Shown here in pieces: positions 53,284-63,892 of a stretch of 64,000 nucleotides of DNA. Position 1 is the stretch's first letter, and every line of letters begins with the position of its first letter. Location: NCBI GenBank assembly GCA_025765595.1, contig JAIVFH010000036.1, positions 248,001-312,000 of the forward strand, read 5' to 3'. This stretch comes from Obelidium mucronatum. Its lineage: Eukaryota; Chytridiomycota; Chytridiomycetes; Chytridiales; Chytriomycetaceae. The notes beneath the pieces were generated by a model. That model was not told where the DNA came from and ran no database searches. It worked only from the letters and a program-made list of their open reading frames with translations. The position numbers and the translations under genes are program-made.

Positions 53284-53658
53284 AATCTTGTATCAATCCT
53301 ATTCCACCTTCTGCCAATGTTATTTTTTCTTGACGGATAATGCAGGGCCCTTTATGTCAGGGGTTGAGTCTCTGCAGTCGAGTCAAGACACCGCAAACTC
53401 AAACCATGAAGTTTGACATCTGCCATTTTCTTTCTTTTTTCCTTGACCTCAAATCATGTTCTTTCAGCATTTTCTTCTCTTTTTTTTACTTTTGTTTTTA
53501 AATAAATCTATTTGCGTTTTTTAAGGGATCTTCCCTTTTAGATCTTGCTGTTCTCTGAGTCCAGAACACAAGATTCTTGCAAAAGCTCCCTATACATATT
53601 TGTAGTTTCACCCTTATCATGTTAATACATCCATCTCTGCCACTCAGTTGAAGATCAC
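53284..53658. other. Intergenic, no gene seen
   Basis: About 375 bp, T-rich on the plus strand, with no ORF of protein-like composition. It separates the KPWM gene from the degraded block and may include the left boundary of that block, but no terminal repeat could be identified here. Confidence 0.4.
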
Positions 53659-54660
53659 TCACTTTTCAACTGACTCTTTGTCAGACGTGTAATTCAGTGA
53701 GGTATCACCTTCATAGCTGAGATCATCCAGATCTTCAAGACTAGCACGCTTTTCTAACATTATTGGTTGGATAGCCGCGTTGAATGCTTCCCACACTATT
53801 TTATATACAGCAGCGTCTTGAAATTTGCAAATTTCTACTTTGCCTTTGTTGGGTATTCCCCGTTTATAATGGCCCAGTCAAATTTCAGCACTTGGCAGCT
53901 GGGGAATCCAGCATAGCAATGTGTAGAAACGAATGAAGTCCAAGTAATGGTATGAGCAGTGGTGAGTTGTAGTTTGTCTTCCGTTTGCAACAAACACATT
54001 GCGAGTAAACTTGTCATTCAATCCAGCAAGAAGAGAGACAGTAGGCCTATGCCAGTGAAATCCCATGAAATGTGGCTGAAAGAAGAGAACTGACTGATCC
54101 TCAACTACAATAGCAACAGAATGGCTTGGGGAAATCCTCTTTGTTATAATTCAACATAAATTACACCTTCACAACCAATTCACAGTAACCAAATACACTT
54201 ACTTTTTTTTGGTCTGAGATATCAAATGGACAATGGCTATTCCCAACTCTTCCACTTTTTCCATGACTTGTTTGCAGTATTCAGAAGTTGCACAACAGCA
54301 GCCAGCCCATTTCCTTTTGGATTCCTTATTCATGCGTAAGAATTCTCACTTAGCTTGATCTGCTTTTCCATACCCAACAGCCTTTCCCATAATGTATTTG
54401 GTGGCATGTGGTGCTAGCTGTGTCTCAAACCCATTCACAGGCAGCCCTCCCTTGTATGGCCAAAATTCCAGAATACTACATGTTTCTTTGAGGTCAAAGA
54501 ATCTGTCCACAGGTATCCGTGGCATTGCTGAGGTTGGGTTGATGGGGTTATTGGCTCCAAGAGAGCAGCCATGATCAATGAGCGATTTCATGGCATCAAT
54601 GGCATTCATGACAGTTTCAACGTTATAGGGCCCTCCAGCAAAGTCATTGGAGGCTATTAA
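53659..54660 (-). pseudogene. Adenain/Ulp1-like cysteine peptidase, copy 1 (in-frame stops)
   Basis: Seen: on the minus strand a frame runs from ASNDFAGGPYNVE (about 54,650) through ADQAK, an in-frame TGA (about 54,346), then EFLRMNKESKRKWAGC. A splice near 54,205/54,134 (AAAAAAAA|GTAAGT ... AAAGAG|G) leads to ISPSHSVAIVVEDQSVLFFQPHF, then FTRNVFVANGRQTTTHHCSYHYL, a second in-frame TGA (about 53,870), and LGHYKRGIPNKGK. The frame ends at 53659. The order His ... NGRQ-x(3)-His/Asp-x-Cys recalls adenain/Ulp1-type peptidases (His then, after about 60 residues, Gln and Cys). Copy 2 at 57850-58749 is its paralogue. Inference: a decayed gene; function rests on motif spacing alone, and the usual catalytic Asp is a Gln (FQPH) here. 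Confidence 0.55.
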
Positions 54661-54924
54661 CCTGCTTTAGAAGTGAATGGCTGGAACCCTTAAATACATA
54701 TGAAGGGCCGGTCTCCTATCAAGTCGTGAGAGAATGCATTCTATTGCCAAGCACTTGATAAAAATAAACCATCAACAGAGAACATACCCTCTCCTTCCAT
54801 TCACAGGCCAAGGATTGTTAAAATATTGAAAGGTAAAATCTTTTTTATCACCCAATCCATGTCTAAACAATTAAATAAACCACTCTTTTTTAGAAACAAC
54901 ACCAAATACCCCAATCTTTTTTAG

Positions 54925-55679
54925 AAACAACACCAAATACCCCAAATGATCCCACCAATCCTTCCTCATCAAATAAACTTTTGGAAGAACCATTGATGGA
55001 ACTTCCTCTGGATCAAATGCGTATTGATCAAGATGCAGAGGTAAATATTCTGTTTTCATCAAAACTGTTTTAATCAATTCACAAAGAACTCCTTTTGCGA
55101 TGACGCAGAAATAGCTCAACCGTGCTTATTGGCTGCCAAACAATATGAGCGCAGCTATAAAATCAAAACACAAGAAGCTAAAGAGGAGCAAGTAAAACTG
55201 GCCTTCTTATGCAGCTATGCTTGCTAAATTCTTTTTCTCAATTATTTGAAATGATTTTCTAATTGAATGATATTCTAATTGACTTGGGCCCATCAGTCTT
55301 GTGTCTGATCAATGCGATTCTGAAACTCGCGCTACCACAGACACCAAGATTCCAAAAAATGTGTCGAAAAGCCGTCAAGCTCACTGGTCAGCCTGTTAAC
55401 TCCAGCAGCACCACCACAGTCAAACAAACCTGCTTCCACTGACTCAGCTCCTCCTGCTGAAACTGCAACTGACAAAGATACTGCAGAATCTCCCAACAAA
55501 GACACGGCAAAAACTGCCAAGGATGCCCCTCCTGCTGCCGCTCCAACCACCAAGCCAAAACCAGCCAGAGGCACCAAGTGGCAGAAATATTCACCATTTC
55601 CCAGAGTCAGAAAATCCCACACCCGTCCCAAAGAAATAAAAGTCCCCAACAAGCAGTCAAGCCTGACCCGGATCTATTG
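54925..55679 (+). pseudogene. Exons of an unidentified, probably broken gene on the plus strand
   Basis: Seen: exon 54925-55040 encodes TTPNTPNDPTNPSSSNKLLE and ends RIDQDAE. The next exon, 55087-55191, encodes NSFCDDAEIAQPCLLAAKQYE and ends AKEEQ; both splice sites fit. A third, Pro/Thr/Ala/Lys-rich stretch (about 55,390-55,676) reads STDSAPPAETATDKDTAESP and PKPARGTKWQKYSPFP, but the frame does not join it to the exons without a 1-2-nt change. A 30-nt direct repeat (TCTTTTTTAGAAACAACACC, 54,888 and 54,918) duplicates the first acceptor. No homologue is recognised; the low-complexity part would be disordered. It runs antisense to copy 1 of the peptidase. Confidence 0.4.
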
Positions 55680-56269
55680 ATTGCTAAGAATAAGGGTTTT
55701 TTTATTGATGCGTTTGAAGGAACTTTCGACAGACAATGACTGTGTTATTATTGAACACACAGTTGAGCCTGTCTTTGGAATCTGTGGATGGGTTTGCGAA
55801 CTTGGTGTGGATGGGGACTCTGGTCCTGGTACTGGGAGTGATGGTGCTCCTGAAGAATCAGTAGCTGCAAATAACAATGAGTAGGCAAGTTTGGACATTA
55901 GCTAACGCCTGGTTGGGGGAGGGATACAGTTGAGGGGTTTGGGTGCGTTAGGAACTTTGGCTGGAAATGGAGTTGAACCACAGGCCAAACTGGCAGGGGT
56001 GGACAATCCTGGTGAAAAATTGTTGGAAAATGAGATGCCAGCTCGCCCCACCTCCTGTCAACAGCACCACAGGCCAACGGTGGTGACAAGTGAAAGCAAC
56101 TGGACCATTTTGATGCCCAGGTAATGGGCGTTTATTCAACATTGATGAGCATTGAGAGCACCACAAAAACAACTCTGTTTTATCAAACAGACAAATTCAT
56201 GGAGGAATACTGTTACGGGTGAATTTGTTTTATTGGCTTGAATTCTTTCAGATTGTTCTAATCAGTGAT

Positions 56270-57336
56270 TTTACAATAATCAGATATCAAAAAATTGGAG
56301 AAAGAGATGCAGCTATACTACAAAGTGCCAGTGGAATGCCACTTGATGAGGACGACCCATGCTATGTCAAGGCAAATTATTCACGCCTGCTTACAGAGTC
56401 ACCACCACAGCAGTGGAGTGCAAGGACTTACATTCCCGGCTCTGAAGTTTCATTCCTAGGTCTAGCTGCCCATTGTGAAGTGGGAAATAAGGCTGACATT
56501 CCAAAGTTGGCTGACAACTGTTGGTGCAAGAGACAATCTGTCAAGCCCCAGTATCAAAGCAAGTCGCCTGTTGGCATCTTATTTTGCAAATGCCAACTGT
56601 TTCCCCCCAAATCAAAACTACACACTTTGCCCACCTATGTAGACGGAGTCAAACCGCAATACAAGTTTTTTGACCAACTGTGTGCCAAAGTAGCTCAGCA
56701 GCTGTGTGGAACAGAGAACCGAGCTTGCCTCCTTTGCTTGTTGTTCCACGTCAATCTAGCAGTTGATTGCTCTTCTGACTAGGTAAGTGTCTACTTGTTT
56801 CCAATTTAACCACCTTCCTTTTATTCCAAAACGCGTACACCTACATGAGATTTGCTTTCCCACAGCTGCCTACATCAAAGGTTTCTGCCATTCTGTCCAC
56901 TTAGTTCAACTTGCAAGAAATGTGCTACATGAGGGTTAGTTGTCTTGCATCAGTTTCACCTCTATCTGAAAGTAACTGCTCTTTTCCGGGGCATACTATG
57001 CTGGGGTTTGTTGAAAGTGACCGTGAAGGTTTTGACTACTTGCACCGTTACATGCGAGCTGCAAAACTTGTTGATTTGTTTGGCGGTGATAGTTGTTCTG
57101 TAGTTGCTGATAACTTGGAATACATTGTGGACATGCCTTTGGAGAGTTAGGAGGAATATAACATAAGAGAAATTGGTGACTCTACTGTAGTGAAGGAAAC
57201 CTCCACTGTGCTTGCCGAGAGGAACAATCCCTGGGGTATCAAAGGCATTCCCATTGATCTTTATCTGGCGGAGTGGGATTCCAGTAAATATGCTGATTCT
57301 AGTTCAATGAGTGAGATGGGCTCGTTGGATGGGTAA
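56270..57336 (+). pseudogene. Unidentified ORF remnants with in-frame TAG stops
   Basis: Seen: exon about 56,285-56,782 reads YQKIGERDAAILQSASGMPL through VKPQYKFFDQLCAKVAQQL and stops at TAG directly before a good donor (GTAAGT). After the intron a frame from about 56,877 reads SESNCSFPGHTMLGFVES and GFDYLHRYMRAAKLVDLFGG. It passes a TAG at about 57,148 and goes on with EEYNIREIGDSTVVKE to a TAA at 57336. Each TAG could come from CAG by one C-to-T change. No domain is recognised; several Cys pairs are present but not in a familiar order. Inference: one degraded gene. Confidence 0.4.
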
Positions 57337-57397
57337 ATTAGTTTTTAGAGTAAGTAAGAATAAAGAGTACTTGTTAGGAATCAATCCTGAAGAGTCA

Positions 57398-57478: not shown

Positions 57479-57849
57479 TGTTATTTGTTGAGTTTCACTG
57501 GAGGCCTTATCAGTTTCTAACAGTACCTGTCGTTATTGATTCCTTCACAGTGTACAGAGGCCCCCAGCCTGAAAGTTTCAGTCTTCCTGGAGTGGCCGTT
57601 GGTTTTGTTGCAGTTGATTCCTGCGCAGTTAATTCTTGTGTCTGTAATCCAAAAAATAAGAACTGTAGGCACTTCCCCCTTCCCCTCAATCATCCATCTT
57701 TGGATCATATGGTGGGTCCTTAATAACCTGCACTGCATCCGTCTTGATTTCATCAAGCTCCAACCCAACACTATGAACCAGCTCCTCAAACTCCTTACCC
57801 AATCCCTTTACCAACTCCCTTTTGTTTATGTTGAGTTTGCGACATATGT

Positions 57850-58749
57850 TCAAGCCTGGAGGAATCTCATTCGCAATGACCCTTCAAAGCGACGAGCTTG
57901 GCAACGTGACAAGCCACCATTGGGTGGAAGACCCAAATAAAACAAAAGGAATGCAATGCAGCGGTAAGCACAATTGTCAGATGTTGTCTTCCATTGACCA
58001 CGTACAAGCTTCGCATTTGACGAGAGGTCAACTTGCTCAACAAGTTTACAGCAGGCAAAGACCACAGATCCCCTGTGTAGTGTGGTTGAAAAAGAATGAC
58101 AGAGGTGGCTTCAACAACAACACTGGTGGAATGAGCTGGAATGGTCTTTGTCTGACTACAGTTTTTTTTAACAGCTTGTATTTCCCACCAACAAAAAAAC
58201 CACAACTTACTTTTTCATTGTGTCATAAACAACCTGCACAGCGCACACTCCAAGAGTTTCCACTAGAGCTTCCATTTCCTTGGCAACAGCTGCACTAGGG
58301 TACACTGCTGCATCTCCATAGTTTGGCAGATCCACATATTGTTTCATTTGTTTCATGGTTGTGAAACAAATGGACTTCTCCATTAGGTATGGCAGTAAAC
58401 AAATAGGGATTCTTGATCAAAATTCGGAAACGGGGAGGCCCGTCTTGATTGGATCAAGAAGTAGGAGTGGGGCGTTCTTGCGCAACTCATTCATGGAGAA
58501 GGGGGGGAGAGATGGGAGGTTGTCGGGGAGGCCCGATTGCGGTAGGTTGAAGAGCGTGTGCATTCTGTTGAGAAGGTCTTTGGCAGCCTGGAGATGGATG
58601 CTGTGGGGATTGCTGCTTGCTTCAACAATGCTCTCTCCAAAGACTGCTGCATCTGCTGCAGAGGCTTTCCTGGCTGCTTTGGTTCCAAGCTGTTTGCGTG
58701 GCGCCTTTCCTCCAGTGGATTTACAAGCACTCTGCTTTGTTTTTGCCAT
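57850..58749 (-). pseudogene. Histone H3-tail-bearing adenain/Ulp1-like peptidase, copy 2 (one TGA, one frameshift)
   Basis: Seen: ATG 58749 opens [20 protein letters not shown], then [10 protein letters not shown], a close copy of the histone H3 tail with K4, K9, K14, K18, K23 and K27 in place. The histone fold does not follow. The frame continues ([31 protein letters not shown]), meets a TGA at 58417, then stays open through YVDLPNYGDAAVYPSA and VETLGVCAVQ. A splice near 58,211/58,157 leads to IPAHSTSVVVEATSVILFQPH and YVVNGRQ. A one-base shift later, SDNCAYRCIAFLLFYLG reads on to a stop at 57850. Copy 1 matches it along most of this length. Known: adenain/Ulp1 peptidases have His, Gln and Cys spaced like this. 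Inference: a chromatin mimic joined to a ubiquitin-type peptidase, now damaged. Confidence 0.6.
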
Positions 58750-59135
58750 TTTGATTGTGAAAAATAAAATAGACATAATTTCAATTCACCCCCAACAACC
58801 ACACTATTCACCCCCAACATGAGCTACCATTTTAAACATGAGCTATTAGTAATATATATTAACCAAAAACACGCTCAAAACCGCGACAGGTAGCGAGATT
58901 CTGGTGTGTTGGGGAAACCAACACCAGCTCACAACTCCTCCAATTGGGCCCCAATTTGAAAATTGAAAGAGAATAATTTCCATTTAATGTAATAAGAATA
59001 ATGTATATTTATTGTAACCACATTCAAAAGTGATTGGGAAATAGCAATGTTGCTCATTAATAAATCTCATTTTACACCTAACCCTAAATCTCATGTGTAA
59101 AATGAGATTTATTGACAACGAAAAAAAACTCAAAA

Positions 59136-59341
59136 ATGACCACACCAACCAACCAACCACCAACGCAAGACCAACACCATCACTGCTGGCACTGCACTGC
59201 TCCCTGCAATGTGGCTTATTCCACCAACCAAGTGGTTTCGGAACCTATGATCCTGGGGCTCTGCAGTGGCAGCTGTAGACAAACAGCCTGGTTTGACAGG
59301 CCTCAGTACTAGCCACCCATCTGCACCCTCTGCTCTCTTTG
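59136..59341 (+). pseudogene. Short Cys-rich zinc-binding-like exon
   Basis: Seen: ATG 59136, MTTPTNQPPTQDQHHHCWHC, then TAPCNVAY, LGLCSGSCRQTAWFD and, past an in-frame TAG, PPICTLC up to a good donor (GTAAGT at 59342). The Cys pairs (C-x2-C, C, C-x3-C, C-x2-C) suggest a RING- or PHD-like metal-binding unit, but the spacing fits no family I can name. The TAG could be CAG changed by C-to-T. Downstream exons were not found. Confidence 0.35.
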
Positions 59342-59869
59342 GTAAGTGGTATAATTTTATCAGCACAATGTCCCAGCCAGAGCTTATGTTTGTTCATACC
59401 TAGTCTGCTGCTTGGCACCTGACTTCAAAACTAAAGACCAATTGTGAAAACGCGCTCTGATTAGCCAAAACCTAGTCTTTTAACGGTAAATAGTGCAGGG
59501 TTTTATTTTATTTGATGGGGCAATCTCCAAAAGTGCTGACTTTAAGTTTGACAGTTTACAACACTCATGATAAATCAGAAATGCGAAAATACCAAATAAC
59601 AACGCTGTTCTTTCATAAAGTCTTTTATAAAGACTGGAATCCAAGGTCCAATATTGCTTCACTACTGAATTGTGCATTTGGATTTGGAACCTCAAACAAA
59701 ACATCCTCACACTCCACACAACACCATTAATTAAAGGTATAGATTACTAACTTGGAATTGAATATTGTGCAATATTAACAACTTCAGGTAGGCTGTTTGA
59801 CTCTTGTTTACCTAAACTGTCCATCTGGTTTCTTTGGTGAGCAACCAAGATTCTGGTGTCGCGTTGGTC

Positions 59870-60735
59870 AACCTGGGGAGAGATGGGGATTGTAACTTTT
59901 GAGTCCACCAGAGCCCTTGTCACGCTGACCTTGAAGTTGGGGACACTGGCATTGGCAGTTGTTGCGATTTATCTCGCTGCCTATGCAAACTAGTTTGTTT
60001 GGCTGGTGGTGTCAATGGCCATATTGTGACTATAATCCCTGGATTGCCTACGCTCTGAAACTGAGTTTTTGACTCTGTTTCCAATTGTTCTTTTGAATGA
60101 ATTTATTCCTCACACCTCCATATCCATCTCCCTCTCTCCTATATATGGGCACTCGATATAAGCCAAGGACACCAGCAAATGCAGGTGTTGTGATTTTCAC
60201 ACACTGCGTGGGCAACCAGTTTATCAAGAATGATTGTGGCTGGTGGTGTCGTCTTTTGGCTTCTATTGAGTTTTATGGATTGGTTCTGGAGTTTTGGATC
60301 CCCAAGCTCCTGTATTGTGGCCAGATTTTATTCATGGTAAAGCCATTTTTTTTTGGTTTTGTTTTTAAATCTAAGGGGTTATTAAATCTTCCAATTTACA
60401 ATAGGCTGTTTTACTGCTGTTGCTCTGCTATTTATTGTTGGTCCATCCTTGTGGGTATGAGGCAGACAGGATAGCAGAGTTGTGTTGGTCTGTCTGGGGG
60501 AGGAGGGGGCTGTATTCTTTGAGCCTGCCTACGCCTTTGCCAAGCCAGGCTCTGAAGCCTTGGACTCCAGGCAATGCAGATGTCCTCACACGCGCTGCAT
60601 TGACAACCAGTATGTTGAGAATTCTCTCAGCTGGTGGTGTCTTTGTCTTCTGTTTGGTTTGGGGTGAATCCCTTGATTGGCTACACACTTGAAACTTTTA
60701 TGTTTCCATGATTTGTTCTCTTGAATGAATCTCTC
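59870..60735. repeat. Three diverged direct repeats
   Basis: Three segments (about 59,870-60,120; 60,150-60,330; 60,480-60,735) share the order: GGCAATGCAG-like block, CAACCAGT-like block, (G/A)GCTGGTGGTGTC, then, in the first and third, GATTG-CTAC...CTGAAACT...TTTCCA...TTGTTCT-TTGAATGAAT. The second and third also encode similar short peptides (NQFIKNDCGWWC and NQYVENSLSWWC). They look like tandem copies of one degraded sequence. Confidence 0.55.
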
Positions 60736-62141: not shown

Positions 62142-62440
62142 GTAAACAAATGTTCACTTTTTTACCATCAACCACAACACTTGCTTATTTTTTTCCTTAC
62201 TTCAACGCCAATTCTGACATACCCACCCTTCCTGCTGGCTCATTAATAGTAAATGCCAATGGAACTGTAGCCCCTGCTCCCCCCCATCTTGTCCAATGCT
62301 ATGCTTGGAAATACGACATTTTTATTTGATCGGGGGGGTCTCAGCAGAAATGTCAAGACTTTTTAGCCCATCTTGACACCAGTCTTGACGTATTCAACAA
62401 CTTGGAAACTTGCCTTGCCGAGTTTTTCTAAGTTTTCCAG

Positions 62441-63892
62441 TTTGAACACCCTGCCAAGAACGCGCTGATTCAAATCAAGGAGGTGATCCACCATCAGCAG
62501 CAGGTCAACATTGGCAGCGACTCTCTGGACATTGATGGTGGTGTGTTGGTGCCAACCACCAAGTTTGAGGTAGTACCATGCCTGTACAAGTGCCCCCAAG
62601 GCTTTCATGATGGAATCGACCAGTGTTCCTGTTTTACTGGAGATTGGAGCTGGGCAATCAACGACGCATGCCTTGACATGCTACAAGCCAACAGGGACAT
62701 CAGCCACTGCACTCTTCAACAGGCTATTGGACACCCGCAAGCCAATTATCCAAGAATTGTGTTCATGCTCTCGCTCAACTGCTACCTTTATTGTCCAAAG
62801 TTACTGGTGGATTATGGTGTTTGCGCACAACCACTCTTGGGGTCTTCTTCCAAAGCTTGTATGGAAGCCACTCATCAAGCCATGTATGCCATCACACTCA
62901 AGTTGATTTCGAAAGCTGGAAACTACCCCAATCAACAGGAACCTGGGTCCAATACTCCTGAAATTTTGAAACAATTGGTTGCTGGATCGGATGCTAGCCA
63001 GTGTGTCACCAACAAGGGAATCATGAAGATTCTTGGGAATGTTGTCAAAGTGGTGGAGCACTCCATCTTTTCAATCAACCACCCTGCTACAGCTCCCCAC
63101 ATTTGAGTCAGGGGCATTCCCAACTTATAATAAACGCGGTGGTGGCGGCACAGCAAACTGGATTCTGGATCCACCAAAGGCTCCTATGCGGGACAGAGAC
63201 TTGAAGTTGCTGGACTTTCTGGTCTTGACCCAAATCAAGGCTACTGTTGGCTGTCTTACTGGAGTAGACCTATCTGATGAAGAATGTTCTACAGTCTATG
63301 CAAACCTCAAGAATCAAGAAGCCGATCGTGCTTTTGGACCCTGGTTGGCAAGACAAAACAACTACCAGACAGCAAATTTGTATCAACTGTCTCTGGCTGA
63401 TGCGGTGGTTCGACTTGGGGCTAAGCAGCAGTGGATACTGAAGAAGACGCTGAGATGGTGGATGCATCTCTGGAGACTTTGCCTGCGGACCCTGTGGCCA
63501 TGGAAGTGGATCCTCCTGTTGTTGAGGATGATCCCAATGGAAATCCCTGCCAGCTTGTGGTTGATAATCAACCAGTCTCTGCAGCTTCCTTCAGTCAAGC
63601 CTGCACTTTGTTCAGTGAGCTCTCTCTACTGGCTAAACTGCTTGGAATTGGCTTGTCACTGGTCAACAAGAAGTTAATCAGCCGGTCCTACAAGATCCAG
63701 CGCGAGGGAGTTCATGTTGTGTTCCAGCGAGCTATGGATAAACTGACTGAGTTGGACAAGTCTCTAGGAACGTGGCATCCAGGAACAGTCATGTACAGAA
63801 TCTATACCAAAGATCCAGGGGGATGGGACTCAGACACTCGGCTTGTTTCTGAAAAAAAGCCCGTGAAAAATTTGTTAGTTGTAACGTTACAG
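62441..63892 (+). pseudogene. Long unidentified ORF set broken by frameshifts
   Basis: Seen: after a good acceptor (TTTTCCAG) a frame runs from FEHPAKNALIQIKEV through KFEVVPCLYKCPQGFHDGID and YPRIVFMLSLNCYLYCPKL to about 63,106. Protein-like sequence goes on in another frame (YNKRGGGGTANWILDPPKAP, LTGVDLSDEECSTVYANL), and near 63,428 a one-base shift leads to VDTEEDAEMVDASLETLPAD and YKIQREGVHVVFQRAMDKL. A last shift near 63,865 gives VSCNVTVKACGCRCDVTSRQ. No domain recognised; several Cys pairs suggest metal binding. Inference: one large protein gene with at least three shifts, by mutation or assembly error. It runs to the window edge. Confidence 0.45.

Follow-up and report, generated by a model that had tools for sequence, protein, structure and literature searches.

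What does a histone H3 tail do at the start of a protein that is not a histone? We met this question in a 64,000-nucleotide stretch of the Obelidium mucronatum genome, here called the window (C36:248001-312000 in an assembly of 48.3 Mb and 694 contigs). A preliminary description of the window reported that a minus-strand ATG at position 58749 opens with an H3-like tail on an unrelated, cysteine-peptidase-like body. We followed the tail, the body, and the surrounding DNA through the genome.

The window copy is a decayed gene with an H3-like N terminus

We compared the N terminus of the 58749 frame with the tail of the H3 loci of the host, O. mucronatum. The two are identical at 23 of 27 positions (H3 residues 1 to 27), so the tail is where the preliminary description had placed it. 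The substitutions listed there (R2K, R8C, A21G, and then S28A) are all present, along with T6S, which had been overlooked. A phmmer search of Protein Data Bank (PDB) sequences with the window frame found histone H3 at an E value of 1.1e-8. The search gave 121 distinct sequences at E <= 0.001, and the best 60 of the 121 are all named as H3-type histones, with the similarity stopping at residue 32 to 36. This E value and these H3-type matches put the H3 likeness of the window tail far beyond chance.

The frame had been described as continuing into the domain downstream, and this proved wrong: a TGA at codon 111 separates the tail frame from that domain. The first exon also lacks 18 bp that three intact copies have, and the database model of this relic (P0123) starts without the tail. 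Over its whole 1.3 kb, the window copy is 91 to 92% identical in DNA to copies on C149, C118, and C67, which we call subfamily A. The window copy is a dead, decayed member of an O. mucronatum gene family, and its parts are as follows.

58640..58749, minus strand: H3-tail-like N terminus of the window copy (23/27 identical to H3; PDB H3 match at E 1.1e-8, residues 1 to 36)
58211..58749, minus strand: exon 1 of the decayed subfamily-A gene, coding for the tail and the N-terminal half of the body
58417..58419, minus strand: in-frame TGA closing the window frame at codon 111; the site is open in the three intact A copies
58156..58210, minus strand: 55-bp intron, GTAAGT...CTGTAG; the same splicing approach reproduces database models P0121 and P0122 from the genes on C54 (subfamily B) and C35 (subfamily C)
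57687..58155, minus strand: exon 2, coding for the C-terminal domain (His, Gln, and Asp-Cys conserved), decayed through small deletions relative to the intact copies

Intact relatives join the tail to an unrelated body

A protein search of the genome returned 20 matches, among them the window copy and nine host H3 loci. Three more are close relatives of the window copy, and the rest are weaker. The three relatives are the subfamily-A loci, which a DNA search of the genome also retrieved; they are 88 to 89% identical to the window copy in protein and have longer open frames. Each is a two-exon gene in which 343 amino acids are open once an intron of 47 to 55 bp is removed, and in all three the tail and the body lie within one open first exon. 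Subfamily B (C75, C35, and C54) has three exons, 355 to 367 amino acids, and the tail MARTRQTAGKSTGGK(A/T)PKKQL.... Subfamily C has an open member of 476 amino acids at C35:32585, with the tail MARTPQTASRSTGGHAPK... and a long acidic insertion behind it, and a decayed one at C53:1998 with the tail MARMPQTASRSTGGHAPK... A further C-type copy, Cx at C14:295037 (tail MTRTRQTARQSTGGHAPRKEL), is broken; between its tail and its body lies sequence that we take to be a copia-like retroelement.

The spliced proteins of the B gene on C54 (B54) and the C gene on C35 are identical at every residue to database models P0121 and P0122, and both begin with the tail. The database model of subfamily A, P0001, begins at Met69, 68 residues downstream, and so leaves the tail out. 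The A, B, and C bodies are homologous (59% identity between B and C and 33% between B and A in aligned models). Intact family proteins have 343 to 476 amino acids, of which residues 1 to about 20 to 32 are the H3 tail, followed by the unrelated body.

These intact genes uphold the claim of an H3 tail on an unrelated body: the A copies join the two in frame, and the database models agree for B and C. The same evidence disposes of a complete H3 gene split by an intron, an explanation raised in the preliminary description, because the intact A tail continues in one open exon into the unrelated body and the B and C models make the same junction. The other explanation raised there, a pseudogene fragment, is right in that the window copy is a broken relic and wrong for the intact members, which keep tail and body in one frame.

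Searching the genome for further copies with the same tail, as had been proposed, was productive: we read 10 tails including that of the window, and seven relatives are open (three A, three B, and one C). In all, we counted 14 loci with an A-, B-, or C-type body. The four beyond the 10 with a tail that we read are a B relic in the window, C207, C45, and C392. C207 is decayed, with no tail in three forward frames of 2.1 kb; C45 is a C-terminal fragment, and C392 lies at a contig start. Since the genome search overlooked the C53 tail, which we found on reading the locus, further diverged tails may exist. The window B relic is the following.

53622..54700, minus strand: subfamily-B relic, 5' truncated before exon 1 and tail-less; 84 to 88% DNA identity to C75, C54, and C35

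Five more loci, group D, are similar to the family only over about 50 residues around the conserved Cys (E 4e-6 to 4e-5). We found no H3 tail at the three group D starts that we read (C35, C54, and C75). This result suggests one tail gain in the ancestor of A, B, and C, with loss in D as the alternative.

The body carries no histone fold

The histone fold (PF00125) was absent from the intact A protein at a Pfam E value of <= 10 and was also not found in the B and C models. With the PDB similarity ending by residue 36, this confirms the earlier statement that no histone fold follows the tail. The best Pfam match of the A protein was PF15715 (PAF, "histone like domain") at residues 1 to 28, with 15.2 bits against a cut-off of 23.4. 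The body itself matched no Pfam family. When the whole A protein was searched against the protein database, there were 2847 hits at E <= 1; the best 120 of them were one Obelidium protein (P0001) and 119 proteins with PF00125, covering 10 to 16% of the query, and lower-ranked hits may include a similar fusion from another species. The tail-less body found only Obelidium proteins, with 2 hits at E <= 10 among 2113 candidates. A second search with the tail-less body gave 6 hits among 7997 candidates aligned, all from Obelidium, one of them the window's own frame.

The backbone of the tail is kept, and the lysines are kept in part

We compared the 10 tails with H3 without gaps. Three of the tails are decayed (the window copy, C53, and Cx), and the set includes four from subfamily A and three from subfamily B, so these are not 10 independent events. 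Invariant in all 10 were Q5, A7, S10, T11, G12, G13, P16, and L20, and A1, R2, T3, and A15 were present in 9. Among the lysines, K18 was kept in 8 tails, K9 and K14 in 7 each, K27 in 5, and K4 and K23 in 4 each. The preliminary statement that all modified lysines are retained is thus accurate for the window copy and fails for the family (K4 in 4/10, K23 in 4/10, and K27 in 5/10).

The intact A copies share 18 or 19 of their first 20 residues with H3, at the exact N terminus, and the C-type tails share 12 to 15 of 20. All three intact A copies have Gln in place of K23, and B has Arg in place of K4. In the C-type tails, K4 is Pro or Arg, K9 is Arg or Gln, and K14, which is kept in A and B, is His in all three tails read. 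The pattern of conservation points to the tail backbone, the N terminus, and the S10-T11-G12-G13 turn. Because the lysines, on which many readers and writers of H3 act, are not generally kept, several known docking modes cannot fit all subfamilies.

The tail is strongly conserved between subfamilies A and B

We counted substitutions in the first 21 codons by the Nei-Gojobori method; synonymous sites were saturated. Between A and B, pS was 0.73 and pN was 0.19 (Fisher p = 1.8e-4 on rounded counts). When we aligned the A protein from C149 (A149) with B54, the tail was identical at 16 of 21 positions, and none of the 318 segments of 21 residues did better (best segment clear of the tail, 13/21; mean, 6.9). 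Nonsynonymous change in this pair was 0.21 in the tail and 0.50 in the rest (p = 7.6e-5 on rounded counts). Between A149 and the C protein from C35, 9 of 311 segments exceeded the tail. Between B54 and the same C protein, the tail was ordinary, with 13 of 21 residues identical and 103 of 328 segments better. In these segment and substitution comparisons, the tail has been strongly conserved between A and B, whereas B and C show no special conservation of it.

Against the nine host H3 loci, the A copies and the window copy gave pS values of 0.52 to 0.82 and pN values of 0.02 to 0.08. Two of the nine loci have a broken frame (L013 and L021), and L021 is the nearest to the A and window tails. No fusion tail is close to any of the nine. 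The counts cover few codons, and repeated recapture of host H3, or conversion from it, could mimic constraint. We rejected a recent H3 pseudogene fragment as the source of the tails, given a pS of at least 0.52 against all nine host H3 loci and the intact, constrained relatives. Capture of an H3 promoter was also rejected: when the 400-bp upstream sequences from 8 of the 10 fusion loci were compared with the 1-kb upstream sequences from ten H3-type loci, all matches were short and at chance level (best E 0.039, 19 to 21 bp).

The gene family travels in an element that looks like a DNA transposon

The four A loci are embedded in long common DNA. A complete element at C67:13048-32480 (19,433 bp) has terminal inverted repeats and a TA on either side; its 32-bp ends are 93.75% alike, inverted, and 19.4 kb apart. 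The left end (101 bases) matched at 14 places, and 13 of the 14 matches reach the first base of the end. At four more left ends (C35, C54, C90, and C45), TA stands next to CTGTTAATTT, and the flank is different each time. The right end occurs at three loci (C67, C149, and C118) with differing flanks. Since the ends recur with TA and different flanks, the element has moved. The complete element, at about 19.4 kb, looks like a cut-and-paste DNA transposon, with the inverted ends and TA target duplication by which the Tc1/mariner-pogo type is recognized.

An open reading frame (ORF) at C35:29377-30831 matches DDE_1 (24.9 bits; cut-off, 22). An ORF beside the right end on C67, C149, and C118 is 34 to 36% identical to the N-terminal part of this DDE_1 ORF. 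We did not find the DDE part of the right-end ORF or a complete transposase in the A element, or the right end of the B and C elements. The elements also hold a gene with a partial ubiquitin-like domain (E 7.3e-7 and 1.1e-6). The window element is a decayed, rearranged copy that runs from 53622 to beyond 63816 and includes the following blocks.

54699..57372, no strand assigned: element blocks, 85.5 to 94.4% identical to the C67, C149, and C118 copies
58784..60735, no strand assigned: element block on the upstream side of the gene, with 89% identity to C67, C149, and C118
60995..63816, no strand assigned: element block common to C75 and C67 (85 to 95%) and partly to C149 and C118 (77 to 85%)
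62432..63892, plus strand: decayed element gene without a Pfam match, open over 664 to 688 amino acids elsewhere

Other features of the elements

Each of the three B copies has a SET-domain gene (PF00856, 35.8 bits; cut-off, 22.4) at a distance of 1.1 to 1.4 kb.

C54:102155-103138, plus strand: SET gene near the B copy, frame open
C75:8375-9355, minus strand: SET gene near the B copy, frame disturbed
C35:36897-37881, plus strand: SET gene near the B copy, frame disturbed

The three B copies are one duplicated block, and their association with SET therefore counts as one linkage, not three. Further SET copies are present on C31, C16, and C41 (two), and SET copies also occur with no B copy nearby. 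The gene is of the histone methyltransferase type, and its nearest PDB sequences are KMT5A/SETD8 (E 7.5e-4).

At C35:36140-36640 (about 2140 to 2640 of L058), we observed an H3-variant-like gene with a diverged tail and a disturbed frame, which by eye resembles centromeric H3. It sits between element blocks that are adjacent on C75; C54 has a NIF3 gene at that place. The region C35:29-54 kb brings together the DDE_1 transposase, group D, C, and B genes, a SET gene, and the H3 variant, and thus holds two different H3-tail genes, with a left element end at 53.2 kb. It may be one element or several nested ones.

Beside the left end of the complete element, C67:13104-13835 (minus strand) encodes a zinc-ribbon-like segment resembling the end of a Fanzor/TnpB-type protein; its Pfam match to the TNB domain (E 0.033) is below the cut-off. 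The intact A genes are directly preceded by a tandem repeat with 283-bp spacing, at C149:61809-64463 (10 hits), C118:94243-94916 (3 hits), and C67:24353-25035 (3 hits), and the same DNA search of the genome listed none beside the window copy. The targets of VANC in Arabidopsis are often tandem repeats too (PMC5735166). At C75:7349-7606, the B gene is followed on its 3' side by repeats of a unit of about 130 bp (GTACACTGTGAAGGAATCAA...), which also occurs 3' of the A genes.

A transposon-borne mimic of the H3 tail is the preferred reading

We favor, with moderate confidence, the explanation that the family encodes a transposon-borne mimic of the H3 tail that docks on host proteins that bind this tail. 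Before subfamilies A, B, and C diverged, a mobile element would have joined the 5' part of an H3 coding sequence from its host, in frame, to a gene of its own; the amino acid sequence would then have been preserved by selection. Translation would start at the tail ATG, and the initiator Met would be removed as in H3. The nearly invariant ART.QTA..STGG.AP..L at the exact N terminus could thereby expose a tail resembling that of H3 to the host proteins by which H3 tails are bound, read, or modified. Such proteins might be drawn to the element's protein and DNA, or they might be titrated off the element's own nucleosomes, for a role in anti-silencing or chromatin docking. The host genome has 68 chromodomain matches, many of them in long frames that we took to be retroelements; with chromodomain proteins in the genome, machinery for the tail to engage is present. 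The "molecular mimicry of chromatin" of the preliminary description remains a good hypothesis.

A narrower version, which we put forward tentatively, is that the tail is a selected N-terminal decoy: the element's protein would titrate or recruit the writers and readers of the H3 tail and so let the element escape silencing. If so, the lysine changes in B (K4) and in the C-type tails (K4, K9, and K14) would be the making of an unmodifiable decoy, and the SET-domain gene beside the B copies would be its partner.

The chief rival to a docking mimic, in our judgment rather unlikely, is that the tail persists chiefly because it directs nuclear import, residues 1 to 28 of H3 being a known karyopherin cargo signal (Kap123 and Kap-beta-2). 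The tails are basic, with K14 retained in A and B, and Kap123 is reported to bind H3 residues 1 to 28 through K14 and K23, with weaker binding by Gln mutants of these positions (PMC5677370). However, one of these two residues is itself Gln in the intact A copies (K23) and the other is His in the C-type tails (K14), three of three in each case, and a plain basic signal needs no ART.QTA..STGG.AP..L at the exact N terminus.

It is improbable, in our estimate, that the body does the work as a clan-CE-like cysteine peptidase, similar to a deSUMOylase, with the tail as its chromatin address label. The C-terminal domains of A, B, C, and Cx (five aligned) have an invariant His, Asn-Gly-x-Gln, and Asp-Cys, with the Gln six residues before Asp-Cys, an order that we take to resemble that of clan CE peptidases. 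Against this, there was no Pfam peptidase match for A (E <= 10) or for B and C (E <= 1), the aligned domains have no invariant acidic residue at the place expected for clan CE, and an AlphaFold2 model from a three-sequence alignment was unusable (mean pLDDT, 34.8). Both searches with the tail-less body also kept to Obelidium. The peptidase-like body of the preliminary description is so far not supported, the order of His, Gln, and Asp-Cys being its one suggestive feature.

We give still less credence to a tail that is a functionless passenger, in which an accidental fusion let the 5' end of H3 provide a start codon or promoter. When transposons capture genes, such fusions are known to arise, and B and C show no added constraint on the tail. 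Purifying selection on the tail between A and B already disfavors this explanation, as does the lack of convincing similarity when upstream DNA from 8 of the 10 fusion loci is compared with that from the ten H3-type loci. Chance convergence, or a cause unrelated to H3, is very remote: the C-type tails do match H3 at just 12 to 15 of 20 residues, but the intact A copies, which match 18 or 19 of 20 and do so at the corresponding place at the N terminus, in effect refute it for A, and even the decayed window copy finds H3 in the PDB at E 1.1e-8.

Comparison with known systems

Canonical H3 from the Obelidium loci and the intact A proteins have in common the exact N terminus and 18 or 19 of the first 20 residues. 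The family proteins differ in having no histone fold and a different body, and in B and C the modified lysines are partly replaced. The nearest likeness by Pfam is PAF15/PCLAF, the PCNA-associated factor, which has an H3-like N terminus and docks on UHRF1. Like our family, it is a nonhistone protein that opens with an H3-like tail; unlike it, PAF15 is a host gene with another body, and the PF15715 match stays below its cut-off (15.2 versus 23.4 bits).

Histone mimics are also known from viruses and bacteria and from the SNAG domain. These are nonhistone proteins with an H3-like stretch, as in our family, and the stretch in the mimics is able to engage H3-tail binders. Most of them have short motifs, whereas the Obelidium proteins have about 20 to 30 H3 residues at the true N terminus and are carried by a transposon. 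The automethylation motif of G9a/GLP is another histone mimic (PMC9768651).

We found no transposon-encoded H3 tail among the listed matches of our search of open-licence PubMed Central papers; if the decoy reading is true, this would be the first one known from that literature. The family would also provide variants of the H3 tail in a natural series, under selection for something besides DNA packing, that would separate the tail residues needed for docking from those needed for modification, and it would allow a direct test of a mobile element against chromatin silencing in an early-diverging fungus.

Two transposon systems come close in other ways. VANC of the Arabidopsis VANDAL elements is sequence specific and induces loss of DNA methylation. 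Like the gene described here, it belongs to a transposable element without being the transposase gene, and it has been proposed to act on silencing by the host; the abstract of the VANC report describes no H3 tail for it (PMC5735166). Fungal DNA transposons of Basidiomycota and Ascomycota have captured a TET/JBP dioxygenase, so that they too carry epigenetic cargo, although that cargo is an enzyme and not a piece of a histone, and the transposon lineages and the fungi are others (PMC12730594). A transposon carrying a histone piece would unite histone mimicry with the epigenetic cargo of transposons.
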